From assembly GCA_903831165.1 (NCBI GenBank), contig CAIKWV010000634.1, positions 1 through 7,545 of the forward strand: a DNA stretch of 7,545 nt, read 5' to 3'. Under the pieces are notes generated by a model. The model was not told where the DNA came from. It was given only the letters and a program-made list of their open reading frames with translations, and made no database searches. Made by a program: the position numbers and the translations under genes. How positions within the stretch are numbered: position 1 is the stretch's first letter; every line of letters begins with the position of its first letter. Below are positions 3,425-4,294 of the stretch, one piece after another. Source of the stretch: an uncultured cyanobacterium (lineage in GTDB: Bacteria; Cyanobacteriota; Cyanobacteriia; PCC-6307; Cyanobiaceae).

Positions 3425-4294
3425 ATGACCGTCAGCGTTTCCTCGATCGATCTGCGCCAGCACGTGCGCGAAATCCCTGACTTCCCCAAGCCGGGCATCC
3501 TGTTTCGCGACCTGACGCCGCTGATGCGCGACATCGACGTCTGGCGGGAGGTGATCCGCCGGCTGGCCGTCCAGTGTGAGCCGCTGCAGCCCGATCTGAT
3601 TGTCGGGATCGAGTCCCGCGGCTTCATCGTCGGCATGGCACTGTCGATGGCCATGGGCATCGGCTTCGTGCCGATCCGCAAACCCGGCAAGCTGCCTGGC
3701 CCATTGCATCGCGTCGACTACGAGCTCGAATACGGCAGTGACAGGCTCGAGATCCAGCGGGATGCCTTCATCACGATCACACCGTCGGCCACGACGATCG
3801 ATGAAGGACAGGTCCTGACCACCACGGTCAACACCACCGCGATCCCGGCGGGCACCCAGCTCCACTACAGCCTCAGCGGCAAGGGCATCGACGCCGCCGA
3901 CTTCGCCTCCGGCAGGCTCACGGGCCAGGAAACCGTCGGCAGCGACGGCAGCTTCCGTCTGTCGCACACGATCGCCAACGACGAGAGCACCGAAGGACCG
4001 GAGGTGCTCGAGATCCGGATCTTCGCCGACAGCGACCACTGCCACCAGCTGGGCGCCACCGCCACCGTCACCATCAACGACAGCTCCACGTCACCCTCCT
4101 ACGCCGGCAGACGGGTGCTGGTGGTGGACGATCTGCTGGCCACCGGTGGCACCGCCGCCGCCGCCGGCGAGTTGGTGACGGTGGCGGGCGGCAGCCTCTG
4201 CGGTTTCGCCTTCGTGATCGAACTGGCCGCACTCAACGGCCGCCAGAAGCTGCCGGCCGGGGTGCCTGTCGATTCCCTGATCGTCTACCCCTGA
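3425..4294 (+). CDS. apt: Adenine phosphoribosyltransferase with an inserted Calx-beta-like domain
   Basis: APT makes AMP from adenine and PRPP in cytosolic purine salvage. The N-terminal part (1-115) is a normal APT: IPDFPKPGILFRDLTPLM at 17-34, DLIVGIESRGFIVG at 57-70, the base-binding/flexible loop region FVPIRKPGKLPGPLHRVDYE at 81-100 and LEYGSDRLEIQRDAF to 115. The C-terminal part (226-289) has an intact PRPP-binding loop VLVVDDLLATGGT at 231-243 and the usual GFAFVIELAALNGR segment. Between them lie 110 extra residues (116-225) with no place in APT. They read as a single Calx-beta-like repeat (see separate entry). Without them the protein would be 179 residues, the normal family size. 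The insert is exactly in frame and no stop or frameshift is present, so the gene looks translated and under selection. The start is the ATG just before the conserved N-terminus; no strong Shine-Dalgarno is seen. apt is divergent from DUF3038 and convergent with DUF2949, 16 bases apart. Confidence 0.93.
   Translation: MTVSVSSIDLRQHVREIPDFPKPGILFRDLTPLMRDIDVWREVIRRLAVQCEPLQPDLIVGIESRGFIVGMALSMAMGIGFVPIRKPGKLPGPLHRVDYELEYGSDRLEIQRDAFITITPSATTIDEGQVLTTTVNTTAIPAGTQLHYSLSGKGIDAADFASGRLTGQETVGSDGSFRLSHTIANDESTEGPEVLEIRIFADSDHCHQLGATATVTINDSSTSPSYAGRRVLVVDDLLATGGTAAAAGELVTVAGGSLCGFAFVIELAALNGRQKLPAGVPVDSLIVYP
3770..4099 (+). other. In-frame 330-bp insert encoding one Calx-beta-like repeat inside apt
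   Basis: The block covers apt residues 116-225. It starts ITITPSATTIDEGQVLTTTV, continues with AGTQLHYSLSGKGIDAADF, ASGRLTG, SFRLSHTIANDESTEGPEVL and ends ATATVTINDSSTSPS. The β-strand pattern, the 'IDEG' start, 'DF.SG.LTG', 'I.ND..TEG.E.L.I' and 'A.VTI.D' are features of Calx-beta domains, particularly of the roughly 100-110-residue units repeated in tandem in very large cyanobacterial surface proteins. Comparison with standard APT (in E. coli, ...HVDAI-KPGDKVLVVDD...) places the borders after F115 and around Y226. Base composition is similar to the rest of the gene, so it is either native to this genome or has been long resident. No terminal inverted repeats, transposase or convincing target duplication is visible. 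Calx-beta assignment is by pattern; a profile search is needed to confirm it. Confidence 0.85.

Follow-up and report, generated by a model that had tools for sequence, protein, structure and literature searches.

The apt gene of an uncultured cyanobacterium of the family Cyanobiaceae (assembly GCA_903831165.1, contig CAIKWV010000634.1), which encodes adenine phosphoribosyltransferase (APT), carries at its normal locus an in-frame insertion of one repeat unit related to repeats of exported-type proteins, and this arrangement is retained in several lineages. The DNA analysed, called the window hereafter, is the entire 7545-base contig (C634) of a metagenome-assembled genome (MAG), G000, that is 64% complete. 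The explanation that we favour, with slightly less than even confidence, is that an orthologous, likely active apt received one complete Calx-beta-like unit in frame, and that the unit is under constraint and probably serves as a calcium-binding modulator of the enzyme. The gene and its parts are as follows.

3425..4294, forward strand: apt, adenine phosphoribosyltransferase with an inserted domain, 289 residues (curated models, homologues, structure matches)
3425..3769, forward strand: N-terminal part of APT, residues 1-115 (first stretch of the NCBIfam matches; end of the alignment with insert-free DNA)
3770..4099, forward strand: inserted Calx-beta-like repeat unit, residues 116-225 (repeat alignments, profile search, predicted fold)
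4100..4291, forward strand: C-terminal part of APT, residues 226-289 (curated models, DNA alignment)

The open reading frame (ORF) at 3425-4294 is free of internal stops and is recognised as an APT by TIGR01090 (196.8 bits; curated equivalog cut-off, 185.85) and NF002636 (206.9 bits; curated cut-off, 125); the remaining APT models scored, such as NF002633 and NF002634, fall below their own cut-offs. Both matching models align in two stretches, the first at residues 8-115 or 10-117, and the N-terminus of the insert-bearing APT aligns with those of ordinary APTs. The DNA alignment with seven insert-free relatives of the same genus breaks at 3755-3769 and restarts at 4104-4113, which sets the insert at 3770-4099 within a few bases. 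These boundaries bear out the 110 added residues proposed in the first-pass annotation and the 179 residues (289-110) left without them. Genes for DUF3038, DUF2949 and a FAD-binding protein (Pfam) flank apt in all nine loci compared, two with and seven without the insert, and the insertion has thus occurred in the orthologous apt rather than in an extra copy. The alignment and the conserved locus confirm that one repeat unit lies in frame within a normal apt. As for base composition, it does not set the insert apart (GC content 0.667, versus 0.641 and 0.708 for the two APT parts).

The core residues of the enzyme are retained. At 62 positions conserved in 173 insert-free APTs, the window's protein is unchanged in 60, the exceptions being A74S and V84I, in keeping with the earlier statement that the APT motifs are intact. 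Insert-bearing APTs depart on average from the 62 near-invariant positions 1.95 times, versus 0.21 for the insert-free rows from which these positions were derived. Their p-distances to 16 outgroup APTs are 0.450 for clade A and 0.441 for clade B of insert-bearing proteins, and 0.444 for 157 insert-free ones. In G000 and G027, the only pair of genomes that offers both DNA and a full insert, the dN/dS ratio (NG86) of the insert is 0.37 and that of the host part 0.195. When the same substitutions in the insert were shuffled neutrally, 32.2 codons on average underwent replacement, versus 20 observed, and none of 5000 shufflings gave so low a count; the codons of the insert are thus under constraint in this genome pair. 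A pseudogene or decaying enzyme was rejected on the basis of dN/dS, shuffling, outgroup distances and conserved APT positions, and the window's APT is likely still active, judging from its residues. An assembly chimera or broken gene is barely credible: the window is a whole contig of a rather incomplete MAG, which might raise that suspicion, but independent assemblies with diverged sequences show the same junctions, both parts of the gene are constrained, and the single apt of a 99%-complete MAG has the same structure.

We inspected the best 120 of 7998 scored APT homologues. In proteins from several sources (jgi, lgn, ena and ncbi), the insert is found at the same turn in 16 near-full-length clusters (P0001-P0016; 270-306 residues, 60-93% identity, with an altered insert in P0010) and one fragment (P0017), and the junctions are near-identical across the insert-bearing APTs in the alignment. 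The rows ranked after these are insert-free by length and, where aligned, by alignment. Clade B corresponds to P0011-P0016, known here solely as proteins from unplaced contigs. In one of its members, P0012, five additional residues at the N-terminal junction resemble a tandem duplication of SDCLT. At the genus level, 41 of 42 genomes have an apt match, and three bear the insert: the window's genome, G027 and, in altered form, G023. The sole apt match of G027, the MAG of 99% completeness, is insert-bearing and sits at the locus where the apt of relatives is insert-free. The comparison with relatives called for in the first-pass annotation therefore yields seven insert-free loci and an insert common to G000, G027 and, altered, G023. 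Among the matches listed for 400 genomes of the family, no additional apt match spans the insert, and at the class level, where 372 of 388 genomes have an apt match, only that of the window does so among the matches listed. The solved APTs matched (4m0k, 1zn7 and others) have no insert. That distant bacteria might have the segment as a normal component of their APT, which the first-pass annotation had considered, thus finds no support among the class-genome matches listed or those solved structures.

In the apt of G023, the middle of the insert (corresponding to about 3792-3971 of the window) is swapped for some 123 unrelated bases with the frame kept.

About 6298-6420 of L033 (G023:C167), reverse strand: odd segment of the G023 insert (locus alignment)

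A search for its source in the 42 genus genomes returned, apart from the segment itself, nothing longer than 21 to 39 matching bases. It is either an assembly error or a natural replacement, seen in one MAG and unconfirmed.

What kind of domain has been inserted? It is predicted as an immunoglobulin-like (Ig-like) beta-sandwich (pLDDT 90) with Calx-beta as its commonest Foldseek match, and its predicted fold is near that of the calcium-sensing Calx-beta domains in Na/Ca exchangers. An hhalign comparison with five canonical Calx-beta domains of the same genomes stays in register over 99 columns, with an E value of 0.001 but a probability of 21%. The insert alone has no match in Pfam or NCBIfam at E<=1 and does not reach the gathering cut-off of PF03160; this family matches three of the 55 rows of alignment A5 at E<=1, with a best value of 0.016. 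The Calx-beta-like nature suggested in the first-pass annotation is supported by predicted fold and acidic pattern, but not by membership of the Pfam family. The largest coverage of A5 by any Pfam family is seven of 55 rows at E<=1, and the repeat family seems to be without a Pfam model of its own. A sequence search for a solved relative of the repeat gave nothing convincing (best E 0.021).

The insert aligns as one unit of about 105 residues of a repeat found in long proteins of the same genus, with 39-54% identity, and the best kinship in the family is between clade-A inserts and one repeat of a giant protein, at up to 58% mean identity. The proposed kinship with repeats of giant proteins of the extracellular type thus holds, whereas the idea of a near-identical or recent-looking copy does not: identities in the genus are 39-54%, and a profile search found no second copy of the repeat in G000 or G027, where the apt copy stands alone. 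With the insert profile, 23 of 42 genus genomes match at E<=1e-5 (G000, G027 and G023 through their apt copy alone), 60 of 400 family genomes at E<=1e-20 (G000 and G027 included), and nine of 388 class genomes at E<=1e-25, G000 included and all nine in the window's family. From a total of 37 repeat ORFs, we ran Pfam (E<=0.001) on 24; the other 13 are duplicates, have cut ends, are akin to those scanned or, in several cases, contain at least two repeats. Domains recognised in 20 of the 24 include subtilase, RTX, DUF4214, C-type lectin, cadherin, matrixin, FKBP, dockerin, RCC1 and Calx-beta, and four ORFs have none; to judge by these domains, the repeat-bearing proteins would be exported.

Some of these proteins have layouts of their own. 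L034 (G028:C120), a multicopper oxidase that is likely secreted and whose frame of 1161 residues is open at the contig end, has three Calx-beta-like repeats, then the enzyme, then RTX repeats. A single repeat copy follows the catalytic domain on its C-terminal side in subtilases L090, L091, L148, L152, L153 and L157, from several picocyanobacteria. Four repeat ORFs of 367-441 residues (L144, L145, L155 and L156) have no Pfam domain at E<=0.001, and three of them are truncated where the fetched stretch ends.

Acidic residues of the insert point to calcium as a possible ligand.

3803..4081, forward strand: six acidic positions, E127, D159, D186, E190, E193 and D219, matching the Calx-beta ligand pattern (conservation, ligand spacing)

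All six are kept in the 11 clade-A inserts tested. In 67 rows of repeats, E127, D159, D186, E193 and D202 are present in at least 97%, E190 in 91% and D219 in 79%. The calcium ligands described for CBD1 of NCX1 are E385, D421, D446, D447, I449, E451 and D498-D500, and the E454K substitution replaces one calcium ion (PMC3386913). The spacing of D186, E190 and E193 equals that of D447, E451 and E454, with a shorter distance to D219; E127, D159 and D219 were mapped on E385, D421 and D498-D500 by order and motif rather than by residue-level superposition. The six acids thus fit the ligand pattern of the exchangers, and the insert is probably a calcium-binding module, a putative one on this evidence.

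How often was the repeat captured? We built a first host tree without P0017 and L066 (no ORF passing the motif filter), a thinned tree of 109 rows after removal of near-copies and of 19 named rows with long branches or duplicate sequences, and a careful tree with an outgroup, of 98 rows after removal of 10 named rows and near-copies. For the insert tree, the altered G023 insert (L004, P0010) and repeats that were identical or covered fewer than 86 profile positions were left out, reducing 90 hits to 69 and, minus two apt copies, to 67. It is conceivable, though we consider it unlikely, that clades A and B captured related repeats independently at the same turn, which would then be a favoured landing site. 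The two clades are indeed apart in the first and the careful host trees, the latter losing 10.22 log-likelihood units when they are held together, and clade-A inserts are nearer to one giant-protein repeat (58% mean identity) than to those of clade B (49%). However, a single host clade is not rejected (p-AU 0.148), and in the thinned tree holding A and B together is better by 11.25 units (p-AU 0.734). The insert tree does not reject a single clade either (p-AU 0.418), and it groups the A and B inserts in a starred cluster (99/94) that includes a single repeat besides. In addition, the ratio of insert to host distances between A and B, 1.97, resembles those within A (1.77) and within B (2.18), these distances excluding P0010 and, in clade A, L004 of G023, and the boundaries are near-identical. 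These data fit one capture event.

The position of the insert suggests how it might act on the enzyme. The predicted model keeps the APT fold despite the insert, and the APT core and the insert are predicted to fold as two separate units.

3704..3757, forward strand: catalytic hairpin of two strands, residues 94-111, ending five residues ahead of the insert (secondary structure of the model)
4082..4102, forward strand: linker at the insert end, residues 220-226, pLDDT < 50 (predicted model)
4112..4153, forward strand: strand and phosphoribosyl pyrophosphate (PRPP) loop, residues 230-243 (RVLVVDDLLATGGT), immediately past the insert (alignment, model)

The insert connects the strand leaving the hairpin at residues 94-111, whose catalytic role in APT is established, with the strand running into the PRPP loop (230-243). 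The repeat unit may have been captured from a repeat gene by illegitimate recombination, although no donor gene was found. In the favoured reading, calcium would bind at the loops on one end of the inserted beta-sandwich and stiffen the hinge, thereby affecting closure of the hairpin. With the insert placed between hairpin and PRPP strand, calcium binding would alter turnover, upwards or downwards. In Na/Ca exchangers, Calx-beta domains of the cytosolic loop convert the binding of ions into allosteric control and, by analogy, regulation of APT by calcium might follow the same principle. The stronger version, that APT is gated by cytosolic calcium and that a beta-sandwich captured from a surface protein is its built-in sensor, the logic of exchanger Calx-beta domains having evolved anew, seems to us possible but doubtful.

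Several observations weigh against calcium modulation. The insert changes at about double the rate of the host part; four of six clade-B inserts keep E190 and E193 and the other two have lost both, with E127 and D186 each swapped once for the other acid; and G023 combines an altered insert, in one unconfirmed MAG, with an intact APT. The same observations, together with the presence of the insert in few of the genomes searched, speak for a tolerated passenger, captured once at a surface turn and without function of its own, which would persist because deletion must be exact and misfolding would hurt the enzyme. We regard this as nearly as likely as calcium modulation. It accounts less readily for the six acids of clade A, for the codon constraint, and for the retention of the insert among lineages whose host parts stand at a corrected distance of 0.418. 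Likewise, the neutral parasite-like module envisaged in the first-pass annotation sits poorly with a constrained insert shared by several lineages, and would stand only if the constraint reflects folding alone. Alternatively, the beta-sandwich might offer a contact surface that changes the oligomeric state of APT or links it to a partner, independently of calcium. Ig-like repeats are general contact modules, and the insert is predicted to form a domain by itself, with a linker of low prediction confidence. This is nevertheless rather improbable: there is no evidence of a partner or multimer, the positions most conserved in the inserts are those of the whole repeat family, and just six residues are common to both clades and rare or absent in the repeats.

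The first-pass annotation had also raised the possibility that these repeats are mobile DNA and can invade unrelated genes. A repeat unit in an unrelated enzyme is what this would produce, but we find it highly improbable. G000 and G027 lack a second copy, and no second case of a domain split by a repeat was found in the 24 scanned proteins, best stretches only being considered. A word-based search with the insert alone among proteins of about 160-500 residues recovered 11 APTs plus P0121, a repeat-bearing protein that has no Pfam domain, and a second search three APTs; such searches miss distant relatives, and the first failed to recover P0011-P0016. There is no viral relative, and no pair of direct repeats of at least 14 bases flanks the junctions, although decay might have erased an old duplication. 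The observation reported in the first-pass annotation is confirmed, and its interpretation partly supported.

Other carriers or elements were considered as well. In viral contigs, 46 pattern stretches included no relative. An intein was set aside, the insert having 110 residues and no Pfam match at E<=1, with no motif search made, and no Rfam match to an RNA element was found in the window.

How does this APT compare with known systems? Exchanger Calx-beta domains (PF03160; CBD1 and CBD2 of NCX, CALX) belong to the intracellular part of the protein and sense calcium (PMC4746289, PMC3386913, PMC9820601, PMC13370880), and they are described as controlling their host exchanger (PMC4746289, PMC9820601, PMC3386913). 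The insert shares with them the predicted Ig-like beta-sandwich, an EG start, a D, a D-x3-E-x2-E motif and a C-terminal D. It differs as a single domain without Pfam match in a soluble salvage enzyme, and its calcium binding is putative. The picocyanobacterial repeats found beside Calx-beta, RTX, subtilase, cadherin or RCC1 domains have the same unit of about 105 residues and the same conserved positions; however, they adjoin other domains of likely exported proteins, whereas that of apt splits a catalytic domain. As for APTs (TIGR01090, NF002636; 4m0k, 1zn7), motifs, locus and predicted fold are alike, but the solved ones matched lack the 110-residue domain between hairpin and PRPP strand. 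PERCAL insertions, reported as calcium-binding elements within the peroxidase domain of part of a bacterial family (PMC3396595), are short motifs in peroxidases, unlike the whole beta-sandwich of this purine salvage enzyme. Lineage-specific insertions, such as those of bacterial RNA polymerase (PMC11515920; survey in PMC13114784), have the same A1-B-A2 architecture, and the main text of that survey makes no mention of phosphoribosyl, PRTase, Ig-like or immunoglobulin. We found no report of a Calx-beta-like or Ig-like domain inserted in adenine phosphoribosyltransferase in the literature searched, and it is unreported as far as those searches reach. Domain insertion and Calx-beta-like domains are both already known; their combination in a purine salvage enzyme, not found in that literature, represents a new variant.

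Relatives that have or lack an entire foreign domain in apt at one and the same locus, both parts being constrained, amount to a natural before-and-after experiment. It makes testable the domestication, in a cytosolic enzyme, of a repeat from likely exported proteins, and whether picocyanobacteria can use calcium to control purine salvage. For Prochlorococcus, APT has been described as the final step in a putative route of nucleotide recycling linked to the release of adenine (PMC11698098). Furthermore, and in agreement with the first-pass annotation, inserted domains are reported to have close ends normally (median 14.3 versus 29.8 angstrom; PMC13114784), a rule that the insert would challenge if its ends are far apart.

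Of the minor features of the contig, 11 identical bases (GCTCGAGATCC) occur at 3745-3755 and 4006-4016, each coding for LEI; one copy is in APT just ahead of the insert and the other within it, neither being at the junctions. The same contig encodes, on the reverse strand, a TspO/MBR family protein (164-616; Pfam) and a short protein of the chlorophyll a/b-binding type (6260-6757; Pfam).
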